Positions 2,167 through 62,079 of a DNA stretch of 64,000 bases are shown piece after piece (the first letter of the stretch is position 1; every line of letters starts with the position of its first letter). The stretch covers positions 47,229,269-47,293,268 of the forward strand of contig OX439041.1 in assembly GCA_949317995.1 (NCBI GenBank), given 5' to 3'. The position numbers and the translations under genes are program-made. This DNA is from Acholoe squamosa. Lineage: Eukaryota > Annelida > Polychaeta > Phyllodocida > Polynoidae. The notes under the pieces are model-generated. The model had not been told where the DNA came from and did no database searches. It saw only the letters and a list, made by a program, of their open reading frames with translations.

Positions 2167-4003
2167 AACCTTATTTTTTCAAACTGTGATAATAGTATTT
2201 CTAGCGGACCGCTTAATATTCATTTATCTGATCATCTATCGGTACATGTGCAAAGGTATCAAAAACATGAATGAAAAGCTACAGAACTTTTTTGGGCAGA
2301 TTATATAATAAGTTTGATGCTGAGAAGTTCTATACTGATTTGAATAACTGTGATTGGAGTCTTTTTGATCAGAGTGAAGACCCCACACTATGTTGGAATA
2401 TCCTAGAGAATCTCTTGAAGCGAATGTTAGATACACAATGTCCTGTAAAATGTTTCAAAGTTGTCGATAAAGCCAGTCATTGGATGACAAATGAATTGTT
2501 GGAGCGTAAAACGATGAAACATGTTATTAAAAAATGCCAGAAGACATATGGATACCATATGGCATAGAGCTAGGATATGCCGTAATTCAGTTAACCAAGA
2601 AATTGATATAACCAAGGAGGTCTATTATTCTAATCTATCTGTAGTTCACAAAAAGGACTCTAAGAAATTTTGGAGTATTATGAAGGAGATTATTCCATCT
2701 AGTAAGAGAGCTACTAAATCAATTACTCTAACTGATGAGAATGGCGGAGTTATATCAATTGAAGATACCTCTACATATATAAATAATTTCTTTGCAGAAA
2801 TTGGACCTTGTCTTGCAGAAAAGCATAACACTGTATTTGATTTTAAAGGTACTCGTTGTGAAATAGATATGCCTGACATGAACTTTACTGATGATGAAAT
2901 TATAGAATGTTTACAGAACATTGATGTTGCAAAGTCATCTGCAATTGATTATTTATCTACCAATATCTTCAAGAAAGCTATGTTAAAGTTTCCACAAAGA
3001 TTTATTAAGATTATAAATTTAATAACTACTACCGGTATTATCCGGGATAGCTGGAAAATTGCCACTGTCACTCCCCTCCCCAAGGGAGGTGATCCATCAG
3101 ATGTTTCCACTCAGACCCATTGGTGTACTCCCGGTTCCTGGTAAAGTGCTAGAAAGGTTAATACATAATATATTGACTTATCATTTAGATAGATATCAAA
3201 TTTTATCGAAAACCAAGGTGGCTACCAAAAATCTAAATCTACAGTTGACTCCATTTCAGTTTTGGTTGATGATGTTCTAAAAAAAAGAAAAAGGTGATAT
3301 TACACTTGCAGCCTTCATAGATATAAAAAAGGCATATGATTCTGTTAATCACATGATATTATTGAGTAAATTAGAACAATACCGTATTAGAAATAGAAAC
3401 CTCACACTTATTGAAAAATATTTATCTAGTAGGCAGCAATGTTCTATAGCAAATCATATACGATCTAGCAAGGCCAACCTCTCATGTGGAGTCCCCCAGG
3501 GCTCAATTTTGGGTCCGTTATTTTTTCTATTGTATATTAATGACTGGATATCCCCAGATGATACCCATAAAACACTTCTCTATGCTGATGATTCTGTATT
3601 ATATGTATCAGGGAAAAGTGTAGACCCTTTGACAAATCAACTTACCACTGCTTTAAATAAATCTTCAGGTTGGGCCTCAGCGAACAAATTAACTATGAAT
3701 GAATCAAAAACAAAAATTCTGACTTTTGCTTCCTCAATCAAACTCAAAAAAATTCAAAACCAAAAAGTTTTGTTAAATGGCAAATCATTAATGAATGTCT
3801 CAAGTTACAAATATCTTGGTGTCTTGTTAGACCCTGAATTGAACGTCAATATGTACCTGAGAAATGTTATAAAAACTGCACATTATAAATCACTGATCTT
3901 GTATAAAACGAGGAAGTACTTGTCAGTTGAAGGGAGGATAAGAATGTTCAAGATGCATATTACACCTATTATTGACTATTGTGATGTACTGTATTGTAAT
4001 GGT

Positions 4004-4503
4004 AGCCCTAGGCTACCGTGGGTAACGCTGCAGGTAACGCTGCGGGTATCGCTGCGGGTATCGCTGCGGGTATCGCTGCGGGTATCGCTGCGGGTAACGC
4101 TGCAGGTAACGCTGCGGGTAATGCTGCGGGTAACACTGCAGGTAACGCTGCGGGTAACGCTGTGGGTAACGCTGCAGGTAACGCTGCGGGTAACACTGCG
4201 AGTTTCGATGGTTTGGCCTCACGCCACAAGGGGGCGCGTCTTGCAGCCACTATATAACGTGGCTGCGGGGCGTCGCCTCCTCAGTCGTATCCAAGGCTCG
4301 AAATGGTACAGGTCGTGCCAGCCTTACCCGCAGCGATACAGCTAAAGGAAAGACGTTGGAGTTAAAGACTGATGCCAATTGATGTTCTATCCTGTTGTAC
4401 TTACTGATCGGTTCACAATATATGAGGCCAAGCCTCCTTACAACCGTAAGGGCAGCTGTTGTGTTGTTTCTCTATTACCCACATCTCAAATACCGTTACA
4501 GTA
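4004..4503. mobile_element. 500-bp non-autonomous insertion nested in the LINE, with 7-bp TSD
   Basis: The LINE reading frame stops matching at 4003 and resumes exactly at 4511. The heptamer TAATGGT is present on both sides (3997-4003 and 4504-4510), which is a target-site duplication. The insert has no coding capacity. It begins with a near-palindrome (GGTAGCCCTAGGCTACC), then a GC-rich 12-bp minisatellite, then about 300 bp of unique sequence. Terminal inverted repeats are weak at best, so the class is unassigned. Confidence 0.75.
4019..4200. repeat. 12-bp minisatellite (GGTAACGCTGCG)
   Basis: About fifteen copies of GGTAACGCTGCG, with GGTATCGCTGCG, AACACTGCG and GTGGG variants, run without interruption. 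The unit is a multiple of three, so every frame stays open and the RT frame reads through it as (VTLR)n-like sequence. That reading has no biological meaning. Confidence 0.95.
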
Positions 4504-44000: not shown

Positions 44001-47000
44001 TGATCATAGTAGTAGTTTATAGGGGCAAACTCAGCACATAGGAACAGCTACTGAATTCGGTTTGACCTACTTACTAACCGGAAGTGACCTTTTAACCTCA
44101 ACCTCTTGACCAATCAGAAGCCAGCATTTGACTGGAAGTCATGCCTATGATCATATATAGGCATGTGACCTGTTATGACCTCGTTTCTCAAGCTCTGATT
44201 GGCTGAGAGGTGGTTGCCATGGCAACCATCAAAAATAAACAAACCTAGCAGATATTATTGGAACTGTTTATAGCTGGGAGACCCCTTGGGGTTAAAAAAA
44301 AACTAGTGGTGCCCTTACGCCTGACACCTAGTGGATATTATTAGAACTGCTCATAGATGGGTTAAGTGGAGCCCCCTTGTGGTTAAAAAAATTAGTGATG
44401 CCTTTACACCTGACACCTTGTGGGTATTATTGGAACTACTTATAGCTGGGTTTAGTGGAGCCCCTTTGGTTAGGAAGTGACGTGTAATATCCATGTAACT
44501 TTTAGGGGTAGGGAAAGTATAACCTAGTTTTTTTAGTGCTGATTGCTTGTTGGATATTTTATACTTGATCTAATTTGTTAAGCTTTGATTGGTTGTTGAC
44601 ATTTGTGTAATACCCATGGAATTTAAGGGAAGACATGACAGGAACTTATTTTTTCCACATATTGATGTTCATTGCATGATTTCAATGCTTTTGTCCGATG
44701 CAATTTAACACAACACAACACAGGTTTTTTTTACACTTTTTTATTTCACAAACAACCTTGACATATGAATGTGCTTTTACCATTAGAAGGTTTTGTACAC
44801 ATGCAACAGAAAGAGGTGTTTGCAGTTAGTGATTTAGCTCTTGTCCAATGCATTGACTTTAAGCTTTCATTCCAGGTATTAAAATAACATGTGCTACTGA
44901 TTCTAGCTATGTTTGCAATAGCAGGTTCAAACAATGCCTGAGCCAGAAAGTAGACAGGGTTGTTTTTTTTTACTGAAGCTAAAAGCCCTGAAAGGTAGCC
45001 TTCCTTGAAAATTAACTTGAATGAAAAATGACTTTTTACCCTAACCAAGTTTAAAGGGGCCCTGGCATGGTAATGCATGCCCGCATTAAAAAGTCACGTG
45101 ACCACCCCTTGACCAATCAGGGCATCGTGATTTTTCCGCTAATTCCCACGATTTTATGATCGCTGTTTGAATCGGTACCCATGTTGTTAATTTGCGGTGC
45201 CAGCCCCCCTTTAAAGCTGAAATTTCCAAGGTGCATTGTAGACAGGTGAAACATAGGGTTTCACATATTTGCCAATGTTTAGATTACTTTTACAATGGCA
45301 TAATACACCCACTTTGGGGTAAATTTTTAGTTCCTGAAGGTATGCTGCAAATTTTCGCACACTGCCTAGTGTGTACCTGGTATAATGTCGTGGAAATGTC
45401 TCTTTAGTGTGTAATTGATATACTCCAATACACCAATCCATTGTCTGTAATGTAACATTGTTTTGTTTACAGTAGTTAATGCAAACGGCAAAAGCGTCCC
45501 TAAAAGCCACATTAAAGAACTTGCACATATTAATGCTATTTAAACAGTGGTCAACAGTGTCTGGTTCAGCTCCTCTAAGATATTGAATGTTGTCTACAGG
45601 AATTGCTTCCCAGAAAAAGTTTTCTTCACATCCACATAACACACTTCTTATATTATTGCCTGGACTAATTGCGGAAGGTTTACCGTATGTTGTGTTCGAC
45701 TGTGAATAAGGTCGCATATAAAATTCAAGGAGGGTTAGACATTATGGTGCCTGCTTAGCTAAAACACTACCAAAGACCAGATAAGGGAAAAAAACCTCTT
45801 GTCTGGTGAAGTTGATGCAGAACTGAACTGTTTTACACAATCACTTTTCTTTTTTGTTTCTTGCCCCTAGTTTTATTTTTTTGGGGGGGGGGAAATTGTT
45901 TATCCCCTTTTCCTTACACACAGTATGTATACACATGACACAGGATATGTAATACAACCTTAACATCGTCTTTTAGTAAATTTTACTGTTTTACACATTT
46001 ACTTTTCCTTTTTTATTTTTTCACACATTATACAACCTTAAACTATGTAATTTTTACTTTTTTACTTTTGTTATTTTTTTCACACAGGATACATGATAGA
46101 ACACAACCTTTCACACAGTATACACATGACAGAATACAACCTTAAACTATGCAATTTTTACTTTTACTTTTTACTTTTTAATTTTTTTAATTTTTTTCCA
46201 CACAGGATACATGATAGAAGACAACCTTAACCTTAATTTTTACTAAAACCTTTTTACAAAAGATGCTTATACACAAGAATGATTTGCTTAACCTGTGAAT
46301 CACTTTTTGAAGTGGTAAATCTGACATTGTAATCGCTTTTGTATCGTTTTCTAAACCAGCTATAAATTTTAAAAGTTGCCATCATAAGTTTTCTTGTAAT
46401 AAGAGTCTTTTTTCTATTTTTCAGGCACAAAAAGTAAATGTTGTTATTTTTTCATCACGCATGCTACACAATAGTTTCTATGCATTAAGATGCTACACCA
46501 TAATGCTTTGATGATTGTAACATATGAGCACCAGTTGTTGAACTGGTACATATACGACGCTACAATGCTATGAAACACGTTTAATTTTGACACAAGAGAA
46601 GCTGTTGACCGGATTTAAATAAAGAAAAAGGCTGTTGACCACTGACCTTTTCTTTTTCACTGGTAGAAACTCTTGTAGTCTTGTTCCAGAAGTGGTCCCA
46701 CACATGTTTGAAGAGTTTTCAGCACTTGAGGTGTAACGGTGTGATCACAGTGTGAGGGGCAGGTGGGAAGACGCATGACAGAAGACTCAGAACGGTTCAT
46801 TTCATTTATGTACGACTGAGTGCCAATGTGGATTTTACCTGCATCCCTTGTAAAGGTTTACCAGAACCGAAACAGGGCATGAAGAAGGTGCAGCAGTGGA
46901 GATGTCCAAATCCTCTACGAGGTTAGAAACGGCTGGCACTCCCTGGTAGGCTTGGAGTAAAATATCTTGGTGGTGCTTTAGGAGAGTTGGACATTTGCTG

Positions 47001-48598
47001 ATGAGCAGTCTGACCTGGGGAGGTGAAAGGTTAACACACCTTTCAAAGGGTCTATGTAGGAGTGAATGGCCAGACCTTTCACATTGGGCTTCTTTTACAT
47101 CTCTATGTGTGTATTCTTGTCACCTTCAGGGTAAAAATTTGGTTAGGTTTTCACCCTCCTCTTCCTCCTCCTCCTTCTCCTCTTTGGTCAATGCCATAAC
47201 AGGGTATGTGTGCGAGTTGTCAACAATATCTCCAGGTGATGGTGGTGGTGATGATGACGGTGCCCATAGCGGCACTGTTGCCGCAACTCCAGTTAGGTCT
47301 GTGGGGTTCTTGTTGCAATGAAGAAACTCGCGTATGTCATAATTAGACTTGGCATTTTCCCCACCATCCCATTCACTGTGCAAGTCATGCATTAAGCCAT
47401 CCACCTCTGGAGTTCTATCCGGGGTGAGTGGTGAGAAAGAAGGTGGTGTTGCTCCCTTGGAATGGCAATCGTCCACTATTATATTATAACAAGGTGTGGA
47501 GAGAAAGCCCTCTGTAGAAGTGGGCTGTAGTTTAATGGGTGGTACCCTTTTACCTCTCGTTAGCAGTTTACTCGACATAACTGTGGAGATGCTAGTGGCA
47601 GTGTAGGAAAGCTGTGGTAGGTGTGGTTGCAGCAGCAGCAGTTGCGCTAAAAGCGCTTATGTGATGGTCAGTGACTCCTTATAAACCCTATTTTTTCCCC
47701 TCCCTCCCTCCAGCAGCAGCCTAATGAGCCTGTATATGCAACCCTGTTTTGTTTATGTTAGACTGTCCACCAAATTGCCACCGTGTGTAGTGCGTTCAGT
47801 AGCTTTTTTCCTTCCACCCCCCTTTTCCTCCCCTGTTAAACTGACCACCAAGTTGCCACTGTGACCATTGATGGTGCAAGGTTCACTCCCATTAGTCAAG
47901 AGCTGCTCAGCTGATCATGACTGCTGCTTCCTTACCTCTGAGCTTATCCACTTTTCACAAAAGAGAAACGGTGGTTTTTATTTCAGACATAAGGGGTGGT
48001 GTAGAACACGGTAAGCTGTTTCAACTGTGGCGGTATTGTCCTGAACATTATTCTTCAGACGCGTTTAATCCTCCCAATTTGAATTTTAGAAAGTGTTTCC
48101 TTCAAAACAATACTGCACCTTTAATAGAGAATGGCAAACACTCCTTTTGTCTATCCATAAAAAAAATTGATCAGAAAAAGTAAAAATTGGCAGGTAGCAG
48201 GGATTGAGCTTACTTATAATGCTGTAATGTACATTATGAGACGTCACGCCATACCCTGTAGAAAACTTTGTTTCTAAAAAAAGTCCAAAGGGGGGAAATT
48301 CAGTTTTTATTGATCCCACTCTGGTAGAAGCGTTGATAAAATTTCAGGCAGACAAAATTACATTTTCCCCCCTTGTACCAAACAGAATTTTTTACGAAAG
48401 GTTGTTCAGAACTGAAATTGGCCACTCCTCACTAGGCTCTTGTCATATAGTGAGGGTGGTAACTCAAATGTGGACATGGAGCATGATACAGGAGCAGCGC
48501 CCACTTGTTAGATACTGGCAACGCTGCCTTCACACATTTGTGGTGATATCCACTCACCAACACCTACAATGGAAACACACTGATTACCAAGCGCACGT

Positions 48599-48655
<57 letters not shown>

Positions 48656-51067
48656 AGTGATCTTTTAGTGTGATTCAGGAGCTTGTAGTGCTTTTAGTGT
48701 GATTTAGGAGGACTCAAGAGATGCACTTTTTGCTGATCCCAAGACCAGATTAACTGTGACGTCATGCTTGTGTGTGACAATGATTCTGCATGCGGACCGT
48801 AACAGATGGGGTACGGACCTCCTCTATATCTATTAGGGTGAAGTGTACTTATATACCCATTGGCTATGTAGAACCCACGAATAAGGTGTGTGCTAAAGTG
48901 GAAAAATAGAAAGCAAACAATCTAAAGCATCTGTTGTATCTTGTCAAATTTATTCTATTGCTACAAGCCTTGAACGAGCTGTGATTTTTCATTTTTGAAA
49001 TAAAATAGGGACTATAAGCCGCTTTTTCTACCCACATAAATGAAGTGATGCTATGTGCTCAGGTGGTTGGTGTTTCTAAAAAGTGCAAAGTGGCGGCACC
49101 TACTGGAAAGCAGACACGCTAACGCTGTTTACACACAAAGGTGGTTCACCACCACCAGCACTTGCTAAGTTGCTACACCACCTACCCCACCTACCTCACC
49201 TGCCCTACCTACCCTATATAACCCACTTTTATGTTTTCTGCCCTATTATAACCTACCTACCTACCAAATATCATGGAGGATTACCTCCCGGATAATTTGT
49301 TATTGAATGTAAGTAACAAACCACCTATGGCAGAGTACACTCGGCTAGGTATTTATTTAGGACTGAGAATGAGTCTCATGGAGTACATGAACAGTGAAAC
49401 TAGCATTGCTTCAATAGCCAGAGAAATGCTAACTTGTTGGTACAGGAAAACTGTGCATTGTAAGTGGATGGTAAGACATGCACTGAGTGAGATAGGACAT
49501 TATGATTTGGTGGAATACTGCAGATGGTTCATGGCATAACACAACATGGTGGATCATAGTAAAATACCTGCAGAGTAATGGAAAGTAGAAACTTTGTTTG
49601 TTGACCTTGCACAGAAGTTGCCACGAGATTGGAGAGAATTGGGAATGGAACTGTAGTTAAGTTTTCCTAAGCTTAACCTCTGCTCTACACCAGTTCCCTC
49701 CGACAGAAGTGTACAAAACCCTGTCCTTGAAGTTCTTAAGGTGTGGAAATACAAGAAGATATCTCATCCCAGCAGTTTGATTGTCGCATTAAACAACATG
49801 GGTCGTGCCGACTTAGCTCTTTACGTAGAAAGTTTAATGGAGGTTTCACCTAACTTAAAAGACACCACTGTTGAGGTTTGAGCTTTCATTCACCATGGAT
49901 CAACAAGAGCTAACACCTCTTTCTGTTACATATGTATCAAAAAAGTGAAATACAAGTAAAAAAAAAAACTACGTTGTGTTGTGTTAATTACACATTTCAT
50001 TTCTTGATGCTCAAAAAAATAGGTTATACTTTCCCCTATCCCTAAAAGTTACATGGATATAACACGTCACTTCCTAACCAATTCAATTTATTTTTAATTT
50101 ATTTTATTTCACAACCTCTAGCTAGAGGCAAAGGAAAGTAACATGTTACATGGTGTACAATACAAAAGTTGAAGTTATAATCACAAAATACAGTACTGGT
50201 ACATGAGATTCATTTTAGCACCACAAATCATATGTTACAAAGGGGTAAGATATAGAAATTGAGACAAGAGGCTCCACTAAACCCAGCTATAAGTAGTTAC
50301 AATAATACCCACTAGGTGACAGGCGTGAGGGTGTCACTAGTTGTTTTTTTAACCACAAGGGGGCTCCACTAAACCCAGCTATAAGCAGTTCCAATAACAT
50401 CCACTAGGTGTCAGGTGATTACATGACATTGCCATGACAACAACACATTTTGTTAATTTTTGATGGTTGCCATGGCAACCACCTTTCAGCCAATCAGAGT
50501 TCGAAAAATGAGGTCATGACCTGTTATCATCACGTGATGATGTCATAGCTCTCAGCCAAAAAAAAATTAGGTCATATGCCCATATATGGTCATGGGTTTG
50601 GCATCCGGTCAAATGCTGGCTTCTGATTGGTCGAGAGGTCGAGGTCAAAAGGTCACTTCCGGTTCATAAGTAGGTCAAATCGATTGCAGTAGTCATTCTA
50701 TGCGCTGAGTTTGCCCCTTTATACTACTTCTAGTCAAACACCACATCAAATATGCCAGTATGAAGTGGTTTTTATTTTGACCACTGCTTGACTGTGAAGT
50801 GCTTAAGGTATTGGTGGATATAAAAAGGTCACAGCATTGTAACCTTTCTTTTGTGATGATAGCCAGCCAGTTTACTTGTTTTGGCACTACCTACATGCAG
50901 ACACTTGTGCACTACCTCCATGCGCGCACAGGTCTGTCTCAGCACTAAATACAGTAGTTTTGGAGAGCCTCAAAATGAAAAAAGGCACTAAGATTAAAAT
51001 AGCTCAGGTTTATATCGTCCAAGCAGTCATACTCTCTGTCTGTCTGTCTGTCTATCTGTCTGGCTGC

Positions 51068-51136
<69 letters not shown>

Positions 51137-52616
51137 TCTCTAACCTTTCAACTTCGAGCAGGGCCGATGATCCATAATCTTTGGTGCATGCAAAATAATG
51201 AAGTTACTACATGTTCAAGTGCATGAAGGGATTTATGATATGTTTGGACCCAACAACCCCAAGGCACAAGTAAATATATATTTCATACATGACGTATATA
51301 AAAAGTGCCACTAAGAAATTATTAAATTGCCCCAAGGTAAATAATCATAGGGAACTGGCTCCAGGCCATTTAGAAGATGAACCATACAGATATTTCTAAG
51401 ACATAAGTAGGGTCTATGAGACTAGTCTTATGCCAACTTACTCTAATAAAATCCTATGGGCAAAAGGTATTGTATTTTCATTCAATTGTCTTTGTCAAGG
51501 AATCCCCTATGCTCGATATGTTGGATTCCAAGATTGGAGACAGGCTTTCACGGAGCCACAGGCAGAGTGGAGCAGCTTGAAGCAGGAACTCTCACTAGTA
51601 CCAGGCATTCTGGACAAACTTGGTGAGATTTTTCTCTTACAAAGCCCTGCACAGAGCTATTTCTGTTCTGACCATTTGCTTGGTAATAAATTTCAGCCTA
51701 TGATAACTAGAGTGAATCTATGAAACATAGGGTGTAGAAGATTTCAACAAGTGGCTGGGAATGTGGTGGCTTGAGAAGTGGTAAAACCGATTTAGACCAA
51801 GAAAATGTTTCCCTGCTTTGATTGGTTTGGGGTGTGCAGGGAAATGTTTAATTGGACTTGTAAAGAAACCCAACAACCCCACTCATCCTTCTTGAAGATG
51901 ACTTCTTCCTTGTTGACTACTTGTTTGTCACTATAACTGTGTATTCTATACATTGAAGTTAGTCATATTTATTATGGTATTTCATATTGAATAGTGTGGC
52001 GGTCTGTGCATGTACAGTAGTGAGGCTAAGGACATTAATCAAATAATGTCTTTTTGCCATTCCAGAGCAGGGCATTGATCTCTGTGACATGGGAACAGGT
52101 CCAGGGACCATTGCCTTGTCCATCGCCAAGCACTTTCCAAAATCAAAAGTTTGGGGCCTCGATATCTCAGAAGAGGGTATAGACATGGCCAATACTACGG
52201 CGGAAGACATGAAGCTTAAGAACACCCACTTCCATGTACAAGACATTTGCAATATGCCTGATGACTGGACAAACAAGTGGGATGTTGTTACAATGTTCGA
52301 TGTTGCCCATGATGTCCCATATACGACCAAAATGATGAGAGAAATTGTTAAGGTGTTAAAACCTGGGGGTTATTTTTTGATGATGGACATTGGAGTCCAC
52401 ACTGAACATAAGGATAACATCTCCCTCCCAATAGCCCCCTTCATCTATTCATGCAGTTTGTTCCACTGCATGGTTGTATCCCTAAATGAGGAGGGAGGGG
52501 AGGGGTGGGGAGCTGCATGGGGGATTGAGAAGGCAGTTGAACTGCTGAAAGAAGCAGGCTTCGCTGAAGTCACAGTTAAGGAGGGGCTGCAGGCTGTCTG
52601 TAAAAAGGCTCAGTGA
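41006..52616 (+). CDS. SAM-dependent methyltransferase, Rv2258c-like (winged helix plus Rossmann domain), four exons seen
   Basis: Exons are 41006-41203, 41316-41515, 51500-51622 and 52066-52616. All have GT-AG borders and phases match at each junction. The first two give a helical dimerisation region and a winged helix (SIEIGVRTGLFEVMM, YVREWLGAMVTTQIIDIDDD). The third has GIPYARYVGFQDWRQAF. The last carries the SAM motif DLCDMGTGPGTIALSIAKHF, the acidic GLDIS, FDVAHDVP and the post-motif VLKPGGYFLMMDIG, ending in a TGA at 52614. About 357 codons agree with the roughly 350-residue family. The initiator exon is missing, so the start is open. The substrate is unknown in animals. Intron 2 is about 10 kb and contains the TIR element at 44008-50731. 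The last two exons are duplicated at 60.9-62.1 kb. Confidence 0.85.
41516..42921. other. Intron sequence
   Basis: Part of the long intron. The open frame 41638-41838 follows a possible acceptor but shows no family similarity and is not needed to keep the methyltransferase frame. No repeat was recognised. Confidence 0.5.
42922..43112 (+). repeat. (GTGA)n-headed interspersed repeat, copy 1
   Basis: It begins AGTGAGTGAGTGAGTGAGTA, then has a GTTTAATGCCACTTCGACAG-type core and ends AGTGGGCTAGGGAAGCCCGC. A clear second copy lies inverted at 62348-62535. Repeats starting with GTGAGTGAGT followed by TTTAACGCC-like words are common in molluscs and related phyla. Confidence 0.75.
43113..44007. other. 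Intron sequence with weak repeats
   Basis: Between 43130 and 43520 phrases like ATTGCTCCA..AAATTTTCAGATT recur about five times at 60-80-bp spacing, a degenerate tandem array. Nothing else was seen. Confidence 0.45.
44008..44744 (+). repeat. Left terminal inverted repeat
   Basis: Matches the complement of 49945-50731 throughout. It contains ETS-like CCGGAAGTGACC, CCAATCAG boxes, the X-box palindrome, two and a half copies of an about 85-bp subrepeat (AGTGGATATTATTGGAACTG-type, 44247-44472), and at its inner edge a poly(A) signal on the minus strand. Confidence 0.9.
44212..44227. promoter_or_regulatory. RFX X-box palindrome in left TIR
   Basis: GGTTGCCATGGCAACC is a perfect 16-bp palindrome matching the RFX-family consensus GTNRCC(N0-3)RGYAAC. 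A CCAAT box (GATTGGCTGAG, reverse ATTGG) lies 10 bp away. Conserved between the two TIRs. Binding is predicted from sequence only. Confidence 0.75.
44740..44745 (-). terminator. Poly(A) signal at the end of the leftward transcription unit
   Basis: AATAAA on the minus strand lies immediately after the stop codon of the ORF ending at 44746, at the inner edge of the TIR. The right TIR has the corresponding sequence GTGAAATACAAG just past the rightward genes, so the signal is TIR-encoded for both sides, degenerate on the right. Confidence 0.6.
44746..45078 (-). CDS. Unrecognised Cys-rich C-terminal protein of the TIR element
   Basis: A 110-codon frame, leftmost in the element. The last 35 residues hold two paired cysteine clusters (SFCCMCTKP, then FICQGCL), as in a zinc ribbon. 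The rest (HFSFKLIFKEGYLSGLLASV, YFLAQALFEPAIANIARIS) looks like folded protein. It may be the C-terminal exon or a frameshifted continuation of the ORF at 45211-45717. No family was identified. Confidence 0.45.
   Translation of the reverse strand: MHYHARAPLNLVRVKSHFSFKLIFKEGYLSGLLASVKKNNPVYFLAQALFEPAIANIARISSTCYFNTWNESLKSMHWTRAKSLTANTSFCCMCTKPSNGKSTFICQGCL
45211..45717 (-). CDS. Unrecognised 168-residue Cys/His-rich protein of the TIR element
   Basis: An intact frame starting at 45717. Cysteines lie at residues 28, 30, 58, 65, 79, 83 and 96, and there is a CHC cluster at 140-142 (KVGVLCHCKSNLNIGKYV). A Cys-His-Cys centre in a small Cys-rich viral-type protein distantly recalls the adenovirus E4 34K family, but similarity by eye is too weak for assignment. 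The upstream region has the short leader expected of a promoter-proximal gene, and the next ORF begins 130 bp downstream. Confidence 0.45.
   Translation of the reverse strand: MRPYSQSNTTYGKPSAISPGNNIRSVLCGCEENFFWEAIPVDNIQYLRGAEPDTVDHCLNSINMCKFFNVAFRDAFAVCINYCKQNNVTLQTMDWCIGVYQLHTKETFPRHYTRYTLGSVRKFAAYLQELKIYPKVGVLCHCKSNLNIGKYVKPYVSPVYNAPWKFQL
45830..46260. repeat. AT-rich degenerate tandem repeat
   Basis: The phrase CACACAGGATACATGATAGA with ACAACCTTA recurs near 45915, 46080 and 46195, separated by TTTTACTTTTTTA tracts, with roughly 110-bp spacing. It lies between two leftward ORFs and probably contains no gene. Confidence 0.6.
46658..47578 (-). pseudogene. Unrecognised acidic protein of the TIR element, frameshifted
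   Basis: The first frame (47578-47126, 150 codons) starts at a good ATG. It contains a Pro-rich segment (ATPPSFSPLTPDRTPEVDG), DLHSEWDGGENAKSNYD and a poly-Glu tract. Coding character continues in other frames as VRLLISKCPTLLKHHQDILL (near 46980) and SSVMRLPTCPSHCDHTV, ending at a stop near 46658. Two frameshifts are needed. The total of about 300 residues is one protein by inference. It is the first leftward gene from the central promoter. Confidence 0.45.
47579..47916. promoter_or_regulatory. Central bidirectional promoter region of the TIR element
   Basis: The 338 bp lie between divergent ATGs at 47578 (-) and 47917 (+). A paired motif (CCACCAAATTGCCACCGTG and CCACCAAGTTGCCACTGTG) occurs at about 47768 and 47848. 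CAGCAGCAGCAG/GGTGTGGTTGC words and CTTATAAACC near 47680 are also present. The role is inferred from position. Confidence 0.5.
47917..48600 (+). pseudogene. Unrecognised rightward protein of the TIR element, frameshifted
   Basis: The first frame (47917-48183, 88 codons) reads KRETVVFISDIRGGVEHGKL and FQLWRYCPEHYSSDAFNPPN. After a stop the coding signal moves to another frame (QVAGIELTYNAVMYIMRRHA, then FIDPTLVEALIKFQADKITF) and peters out before the (GA)n tract at 48602. Together about 170-220 residues. No family was recognised. Confidence 0.4.
48602..48655. repeat. (GA)n microsatellite
   Basis: About 27 GA units with one AAG interruption. It gives a spurious Arg-Glu repeat at the end of the frame entering it. 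Confidence 0.97.
49215..49220 (+). promoter_or_regulatory. TATA box of the death-domain gene
   Basis: CCCTATATAACCC lies 52-58 bp before the ATG at 49273, after a run of ACCTACC-type words. The distance suits a short 5' leader. Confidence 0.55.
49273..49539 (+). CDS. Small death-domain protein of the TIR element
   Basis: An intact 88-codon frame. Residues about 22-85 fit a death domain: LGIYLGLRMS (helix 1-2 region), SIAREMLTCWYRKT with the conserved W56, then WMVRHALSEIGHYDLVEYC, the AL..IG..DL signature of helices 5-6. Death domains mediate homotypic assembly in apoptosis and NF-kB signalling. As a stand-alone domain in a mobile or viral-type element it could act as a decoy, but that is inference. 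A TATA box precedes it, and a second, broken death domain follows in the same frame. Confidence 0.7.
   Translation: MEDYLPDNLLLNVSNKPPMAEYTRLGIYLGLRMSLMEYMNSETSIASIAREMLTCWYRKTVHCKWMVRHALSEIGHYDLVEYCRWFMA
49540..49881 (+). pseudogene. Second death domain, interrupted by stops
   Basis: In the same frame as the preceding gene, after stops at 49537 and near 49579, the sequence reads FVDLAQKLPRDWRELGMEL, a stop near 49654, LSFPKLNLCSTPVPSD, then LEVLKVWKYKKISHPSS and LIVALNNMGRADLALYVESL, ending near 49881. The W.ELG.EL start and AL..MGR.DLA signature are clear death-domain features. Either the element encoded a tandem death-domain protein that has acquired stops, or a second gene has decayed. 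Confidence 0.65.
50085..50270. repeat. Insertion within the right TIR
   Basis: AT-rich sequence starting TTTATTTTTAATTTATTTTA and containing CTCTAGCTAGAGGC has no counterpart in the left TIR, so it entered after the TIRs formed. Possibly a LINE or SINE 3' end in reverse orientation. Confidence 0.5.
50465..50480. promoter_or_regulatory. RFX X-box palindrome in right TIR
   Basis: Identical 16-bp palindrome to the left TIR, again next to AGCCAATCAG. Nearby are CACGTGATGATGTCAT (E-box and CRE-like words). Confidence 0.75.
50732..51033. other. Intron sequence
   Basis: Flank of the TIR element. No feature was recognised. Confidence 0.5.
51034..51141. repeat. (TCTG)n / (TC)n compound microsatellite
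   Basis: About nine TCTG-type units followed by about 32 TC units. The long Ser-Leu frame across it is an artefact. Confidence 0.95.
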
Positions 52617-60735: not shown

Positions 60736-60914
60736 TCACTATCTTCATGCATGTTCTCATTATTGCCATTTTGAAATTACAGATGTTTGAACAACTGCAT
60801 CGCTAATCTATTAAGAGCGCTGTAGACTATGAGCAATGTACAGTAGCATTTTCTCACCTAATTATAGGAAATTGGCCTTAACCTTTGCAATTACAATCAT
60901 CTGTCTTTTTCAAG

Positions 60915-61394
60915 GAATCCCTTATGCTCGATATCCTGGATTCCAACATTGGAGACAATGTTTCTCAGGGCCACAAGCAGAATGGAGCAACTTAAAGAAG
61001 GAGCTATCACTGATACCGGGCATTCTGGATAAACTTGGTGAGATATCAGCATCATTCCTCCTGCAAAATCATGTTCTGGTGTTAATGAGCCCTGCACAGA
61101 GCTATGGAAAACCTGGACAAATAACATGATTCTCTGAAATGGGGAAAATATGATGGAGACTAAACCCATTTGGACAAAATCATATCAAATCATCGTACTT
61201 TATAAAAGTGGGCTGCACGTTACTTTACAGTGCATAACAAGAGTCAGCTGTAAAAAAAAGCCTTAAGCCTCTTAGAGACCTGGTTTATACACAATTTCCA
61301 TAGTATTAGTCTGGTTCCCGCTATATATGTATTCTGACAGAGGGGAGAACAAAAAAGTGACTTAACTGAGTTAAAATCCCACTGCACTAGTCTT

Positions 61395-61456
<62 letters not shown>

Positions 61457-62079
61457 ATTATCTACTATTCTATATACACAAGATGTACATCTGTTTATAC
61501 TTTTTCACAGAGGCGGGCATTGACATCTGTGACATGGGAACAGGGCCAGGGACCATCCCATTGTCCATAGCTGAGCACTTTCCCAAATCAAATGTATGGG
61601 GCCTGGATATCTCAGAAGAGGGCATAGGCATGGCCAATTCTATGGCAGAAGAGATGAAGGTCATGAACACCCACTTCCATGTACAAGACATTTGCAATAT
61701 GCCTGATGACTGGACCAACAAGTGGGATGTTGTTACAATGTTTGATGTTGCCCATGATGTCCCATATACCACCAAAATGATGAGGGAAGTGGTCAGGGTT
61801 CTGAAACCTGGGGGTTATTTCTTGATGATGGATATTGGTCTGCACTCTGAACAAAAGGATAACATCTCTATCCCTCTGGCCCCTTTTATCTACACATGTA
61901 GTTTGTTCCACTGCATGGTTGTGTCCCTGAATGAGGAAGGAGGGGAGGGGAGGGGATCGACATGGGGGATTGAAAAGGCAGTTGAATTGTTGAAAGAGTC
62001 TGGCTTTACTGAGGTCACAGTTAAGGAGGGCCTACAGGCTGTATGTAGGAAGGCTCACTTAAAATCAAACAGACCATAA
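60915..62079 (+). CDS. Second copy of the methyltransferase-domain exons
   Basis: Exons 60915-61037 and 61511-62079 correspond exactly in length of exon 3 (123 bp), phase and splice sites to 51500-51622 and 52066-52616. The protein is highly similar (SAM motif DICDMGTGPGTIPLSIAEHF, FDVAHDVPYTTKMMRE, YFLMMDIGLHSEQKDNISIP) and ends six residues later. Both frames are intact. No winged-helix exons occur between 52616 and 60915. The copy is thus either an alternative pair of 3' exons spliced to 41316-41515, or a 5'-incomplete duplicate. Intact reading frames and mostly conservative differences argue for use. Confidence 0.8.
61396..61453. repeat. (TA)n microsatellite
   Basis: About 29 TA units in the intron between the duplicated exons. 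Confidence 0.97.

Follow-up and report, generated by a model that had tools for sequence, protein, structure and literature searches.

Intact vertebrate Mavericks are flanked by 6-bp target-site duplications (TSDs), most commonly end in (AGT)2//(ACT)2, carry terminal inverted repeats (TIRs) of 46–1,447 bp and are 12.7–24.6 kb long (excerpt of PMC8097293). In Polintons, a packaging ATPase, a protease and capsid proteins are conserved, and Tlr elements were once suggested to be non-autonomous Polinton derivatives (excerpt of PMC4028283); as that source mentions the suggestion as an older one, the idea of a non-autonomous Polinton is not new. We analyzed a 64,000-nucleotide stretch (C7:47229269–47293268; the window) of the 1.48-Gb, 63-contig genome of the polychaete Acholoe squamosa, in which a preliminary description had noted an unclassified 6.7-kb element with long TIRs, outward-facing genes and death domains. 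This element is, with a probability of about 0.85, a decayed and now dead member of a non-autonomous family of the Polinton/Maverick type. Of the two identities proposed earlier, an undescribed family and a deleted Polinton/adintovirus relative, the latter gains support from the end motif, the 6-bp TSD and, elsewhere in the genome, an 18.3-kb element with a homologous TIR and shared genes.

The window family shares with Polintons and Mavericks its AGT-repeat ends, the 6-bp TSD, a TIR of ~530 bp and, in the large form, accessory genes that flank a core. It differs in length, 6.7 kb versus 12.7–24.6 kb, and in that no PolB, integrase, capsid, protease or ATPase was recognized in the window. Our Pfam scan of the window's open reading frame (ORF) pieces gave no match to PolB or an rve-type integrase, nor to a capsid, protease or packaging ATPase, although capsids may lack a good Pfam model; scanned pieces from other members of the family likewise showed no recognizable core gene.

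The element had been placed at 44008–50731. Its existence as one unit stood, while its exact ends did not: sister copies place the terminus at AGTAGT, and the element therefore spans 44011–50728, three bases inside the former limits. No 6-bp repeat was present at the former ends, and the sole exact 6-mer pair listed lay inside the TIRs. The TIRs themselves were confirmed, with 355 identities over 510 columns and 95 gaps in the main alignment (E = 5e-78), or 85% identity over the 415 ungapped columns; a second block of 72 bp is 93% identical and, in the right TIR, separated from the first by 184 bp. Given this degree of TIR identity and the broken genes, the insertion is old. The preliminary description had proposed a search for other copies with 6-bp TSDs, and such copies were found. 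Across ten insertions of the family with both ends known, 53 of 60 TSD positions matched, six of the duplications being perfect, one matching at 5/6 positions and three at 4/6 (the window, L012 and L026). This set leaves out L015, where AGT repeats make the end ambiguous, and the second end of L029, where the terminus is missing. As a control, 90 mismatched pairings had a mean of 2.37/6, with one perfect and 13 scoring at least 4.

A 31-nt TIR-end pattern, allowing up to 3 mismatches, had 630 forward and 618 reverse sites in the genome, and its reversed control 0 and 0; a search with the TIR as query drew 1,619 candidates, of which 40 were scored and gave 44 matches. We sampled 29 ends from 27 sister copies and found interior blocks matching the window in 26 of the 27, at 66–93% DNA identity per block and, by our own reading, in the order of the window with gaps and insertions. 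L011 matched in the TIR only and L022 by short blocks only; among 11 second stretches compared with the window, L032, L034, L035 and L041 had no match. Where longer sister copies were sampled, they carried inserted retrotransposon-like ORFs. A 16.6-kb copy on C18, which at first resembled a full Polinton, was rejected because the ORFs at its interior ends look retrotransposon-like by eye. Five other long end pairs were sampled with ten pieces: a single piece matched the window element, and the rest held retrotransposon-like or unmatched ORFs (by eye).

A larger relative, with hundreds of copies, occurs in the same genome. Its 32-nt end pattern had 629 and 606 sites on the two strands (control, 0 and 0). 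Among 100 listed places we took the 43 adjacent inverted pairs less than 50 kb apart, leaving out one 12-Mb pair, and 34 of the 43 spanned 18.1–18.5 kb, the others 1.0–35.5 kb; C1:6065012-6083336 is an example. The relative thus has a length within the 12.7–24.6-kb Maverick range and AGT-repeat inverted ends; in one copy, the left-end gene lies 784 bp from a left terminus that begins with AGTAGT. The TIRs of the relative and of the window element are homologous (69% over 130 bp, E = 5e-10), and alignment scores of the relative's TIR against the left and right window TIRs were 100 and 87, compared with at most 16 and 22, respectively, when 200 shuffles were scored for each side. The motifs CCGGAAGTGACC and ACCAATCAGA are common to both TIRs and, judging from this conservation, may be retained promoter sites.

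The two families are alike in their TIR, their left-end, central and tandem death-domain genes and the outward layout; they differ in that the genes of the relative are mostly intact, without stops and often identical in score, and more widely spaced. Searched with an open 150-aa stretch of the L012 sister's death-domain gene, the genome gave a list of 150 matches out of 1,900 candidates. By our count, 39 of those listed, among them the query and the window, had at least 72% identity, and 28 of these contained stops; the other 111 had 56–64%, of which 105 were without stops, most being a 228-aa frame with the same score. With the window's left-end gene as query, 150 matches were listed of 1,794 candidates; we counted 67 at 62% identity or more, many of them with stops, and 83 at 57–59%, 82 of them without stops and mostly in 308-aa frames. 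Intact frames at 57–59% identity in the relative would point to past constraint, and two of its copies were 99.6% identical over 1.4 kb; the 18.3-kb family is full-size and seems to have expanded recently. Three left-end genes 4.5 kb apart on one strand (C7:23689564, C7:23694076 and C7:23698582) look like a tandem array.

Genes and ends of the relative occur together. In by-eye picks on C1–C2, 27 of 28 left-end-gene matches and all ten death-domain matches lay inside an end pair. In the C1–C3 subset, a left-end gene was found within 15 kb of 19 of 28 death-domain matches, in the outward arrangement in 19 of 19; the remaining nine had none within that distance among the matches listed. Upstream of the relative's death-domain gene lie a 140-aa ORF with a weak DUF5662 match and a single 244-aa frame that spans what in the window are ORFs 47917 and 48240. 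On the same strand 3' of the gene is a 246-aa ORF with a Walker-A-like motif, to which nothing in the window matched, and further ORFs follow. The best Pfam matches of this 246-aa ORF, all sub-threshold, are to viral packaging ATPases, which speaks for a Polinton-type relative; a PDB search gave no match. The left-end and death-domain genes are ~9.1 kb apart in the relative versus ~3.7 kb in the window, and 7.6 kb, including the ATPase-like ORF, separate the death-domain gene from the right end versus 0.85 kb in the window. In the window, the two stretches in which core genes would be expected are thus missing or replaced.

Death-domain proteins serve cells in signaling their own destruction. 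The death domains described earlier held for some sister copies and the 18.3-kb relative and are marginal in the window itself, where the two pieces score 21.7 and 16.5 bits, below the curated cut-off of 22.6 bits for Death (PF00531). Six sister pieces of the gene were scored: two pass (33.9 and 30.1 bits), three fall below the cut-off, and L023 has no match. The relative's protein reaches 50.1 bits, with two death-domain stretches in one protein, and the window frame is 57% identical to it over 208 residues, with three stops. The two death-domain ORFs of the window are parts of one gene. The solved chains nearest to the second domain by sequence are those of FADD, with a weak E-value of 0.015. 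Viral FLIPs and cellular FADD likewise hold two death-fold domains in one small protein, but FLIPs carry death-effector domains, whereas both domains here score as Death. Large DNA viruses are known to interfere with host cell death; by this analogy and because of its domain content, the tandem death-domain protein may act as a decoy or adaptor.

We propose that the small family descends from a relative of the 18.3-kb element that lost two stretches: the first separated the left-end gene from the central gene, the second the death-domain gene from the right TIR. Full-size Polintons would have supplied, in trans, the polymerase and integrase that copied and inserted its members, recognizing the shared AGTAGT ends and leaving the 6-bp duplication. 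The genes kept would be accessory genes acting on the host cell, the tandem death-domain protein possibly taking part in FADD-type death signaling as an adaptor or a decoy.

In keeping with this proposal, the genome is rich in PolB ORFs. A search for PolB (PF03175) scored 71 of 871 candidates and gave 206 matches, with many open frames of 1,426–1,582 aa and repeated identical scores (e.g., C2:36205552, C1:3335781 and C10:67179134), which suggests recent activity of several further full-size families of the Polinton type. Long ORFs upstream of three PolB matches (L051, L052 and L053), candidate accessory genes of these PolB elements, include, by eye, one F-box-like and one leucine-rich-repeat-like. 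A second set of sequences further upstream of PolB showed no boundary bearing the window family's TIR.

Several observations weigh against a Polinton-type origin. In the ~4.6 kb read of the 18.3-kb element, no PolB, integrase, capsid or protease was seen, and its ATPase-like ORF scores under the Pfam cut-offs (best matches Pox_A32, E = 0.0054, and Adeno_IVa2, E = 0.0062). None of the listed PolB matches compared by eye lies inside an 18.3-kb copy; the two nearest are ~20 and 27 kb from a death-domain match and not tied to the element. The 4.5 kb sampled upstream of six PolB elements had nothing in common with the window family (best E 0.15), and the adenovirus protease (PF00770) had one match in the genome, C10:55387912-55388196 at 30.7 bits (150 scored of 321 candidates). 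The evidence for a 6-bp TSD comes from the small family, one end of one copy having been read in the relative, and the window copy's own TSD (CATAGT/TCTAGT) agrees at only 4 of 6 positions, a score that alone means little because 13 of the 90 mismatched pairings do as well or better. Finally, the ratio of nonsynonymous to synonymous substitution rates (dN/dS) does not show clear selection on the cargo within the small family: for window genes compared with three or more copies from the first 20 stretches it was 0.43–0.84, values that shifted or reverse frames often matched or undercut, and two pieces of the gene labeled o3 in Table 1, with one copy each, gave 1.04 and 1.62.

The same data bear on three other explanations. 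Cut-and-paste superfamilies often have long TIRs with internal repeats as well as small non-autonomous members, and this background, together with the absence of Polinton core genes from the window ORFs that were scanned, would suit an independent DNA transposon superfamily that captured Polinton or host genes. We regard such an origin as improbable, since homology to the 18.3-kb element extends beyond the cargo to the TIR itself and since AGT-repeat ends with a 6-bp TSD suit Mavericks and not Ginger elements, for which 4–5-bp TSDs and TGTNR ends are described. The resemblance to MITEs (miniature inverted-repeat transposable elements) and other non-autonomous TIR elements is real in the high copy number, the lack of a transposase and the ends held in common with a larger element; unlike MITEs, the window element keeps several genes of the larger element and not the ends alone. 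The idea of two unrelated MITEs flanking ordinary host sequence, which had been named as the case that would undo the element, has no evidence in its favor and fails because 26 of the 27 sampled sisters share interior segments, and with six perfect 6-bp TSDs around the unit its probability is negligible.

A separate, naturally small virus-like lineage, having TIRs and accessory genes in common with Polintons through exchange and not through loss, would account for the single layout and, insertions apart, about equal size of the sampled copies; matches to the large element, moreover, are shown for the left-end, central and death-domain genes, with o3 outside that comparison. In the scanned window ORFs, though, no replication or capsid gene was recognized, and the TIR and the three genes follow the large element's order, which makes such a lineage very unlikely. 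Returning to the non-autonomous Polinton, a bolder version of it, possible but on balance doubtful, is that the small family is a polintovirus satellite that uses the replication, integration and perhaps virions of full-size Polintons in its genome and has retained just the genes acting on the host cell, among them that of a FADD-like tandem death-domain protein that blocks or rewires cell death. If true, it would stand to Polintons as a virus satellite stands to its virus. In one genome, a small Polinton-type family (1,248 ends found) stands beside its 18.3-kb relative (1,235 ends found), a pair that allows tests of the origin of miniature Polintons, of helper dependence and of the function of a Polinton-borne death-domain protein. 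A search of the open-access literature, with Repbase and most subscription journals outside it, gave no paper on death domains in Polintons or adintoviruses or on non-autonomous or mini Polintons by name, and broader searches gave none on the subject among the entries inspected.

Table 1. Features of the element in the window (positions from the first base of the window)
Feature	Position	Strand	Remarks
Whole element	44011..50728	none	6,718 bp; AGTAGT left end, ACTACT right end; terminus set by 20 sister-copy ends
Left TSD half, degraded	44005..44010	+	CATAGT; 4/6 match to right half
Left TIR	44011..44540	+	2–3 tandem units of ~90 bp inside
o1, left-end gene, second part, Cys-rich	44746..45093	-	Reads towards left TIR; in eight of first 20 sister stretches
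153-bp segment	45057..45209	none	Missing from sisters (L012, L017, L020, others), contiguous there with 7-bp overlap
o2, left-end gene, first part	45211..45717	-	57–59% identical to open frame, mostly 308 aa, in 18.3-kb relatives
o3, three ORF pieces (47129-47578, 46838-47119, 46660-46857)	46660..47578	-	Splicing judged by eye
o4, central right-strand gene, first part	47917..48183	+	51% identity to L076 ORF 133-864
o5, central right-strand gene, second part	48240..48605	+	54% identity to L076 ORF 133-864
Insertion site in sisters	48469..48472	none	L018, L027, L031, L043 and L048 longer by 0.8–2.5 kb
TATA-like site, TATATAA	49215..49221	+	58 bp upstream of death-domain ATG
Tandem death-domain gene	49273..49881	+	Three in-frame stops: after first domain, before second, inside second
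Right TIR	50010..50728	-	Interrupted by 184 bp (50082-50265) without left counterpart
Right TSD half, degraded	50729..50734	+	TCTAGT

The features of the window copy are collected in Table 1. The outward gene blocks with a divergent center were borne out as an ORF layout. Two of the element's stop-to-stop ORFs are 176 aa long, a length that the longest ORF reached in 2.2% of 500 first-order Markov simulations and the second longest in none; ORF length alone is weak evidence because ORFs of at least 176 aa also occur elsewhere in the window. The layout conserved in sister copies is the stronger indication of genes. Two pairs of ORFs previously treated as separate are to be corrected: 44746 and 45211 are neighbors in the sisters and split in the window by 153 bp, and 47917 and 48240 both match the single 244-aa ORF of the relative. 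The o3 pieces are possibly one spliced gene, and a second TATAA lies, by eye, upstream of the 47578 ORF. No gene was recognized in the extra 0.8–2.5 kb of the five longer sisters. The poly(A) sequence ascribed to the TIRs was not upheld: apart from A-rich sequence, a scan for AATAAA/ATTAAA found no outward-reading signal inside either TIR and none downstream of the death-domain gene on the plus strand, the nearest left-side signal of this type being at 44745 (minus strand), on the interior side of the left TIR boundary. Microsatellites occur at 48603-48655, (GA)n, and 51079-51131, (TC)n, and several sister alignments break near the first.

Searches beyond the genome added little. AlphaFold2 models from single sequences had mean predicted local distance difference test scores of 45.9 and 37.4, too poor for a fold search; the best PHROGs E-value was 0.039, and Rfam gave no match. 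Two TIR patterns and the left-end gene had no match in IMG/VR. Two IMG/VR matches to the death-domain piece were dropped, L001 being a short match in another frame of a long ORF and L002 being judged from the same match length and identity. A protein-database search with two cargo products found no relatives, while a like search with the neighboring methyltransferase gave 24, the sole named animal among them being Lamellibrachia satsuma (53%).

The methyltransferase belongs to one of two similar host ORF sets in the window, at 51400-52613 and 60833-62076, with the element just upstream of the first; the second set matches Methyltransf_31 (88.5 bits), and the first was judged similar by eye. 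At the other side of the window, positions 3281-4342 hold a retrotransposon reverse-transcriptase ORF (RVT_1, 84.8 bits).

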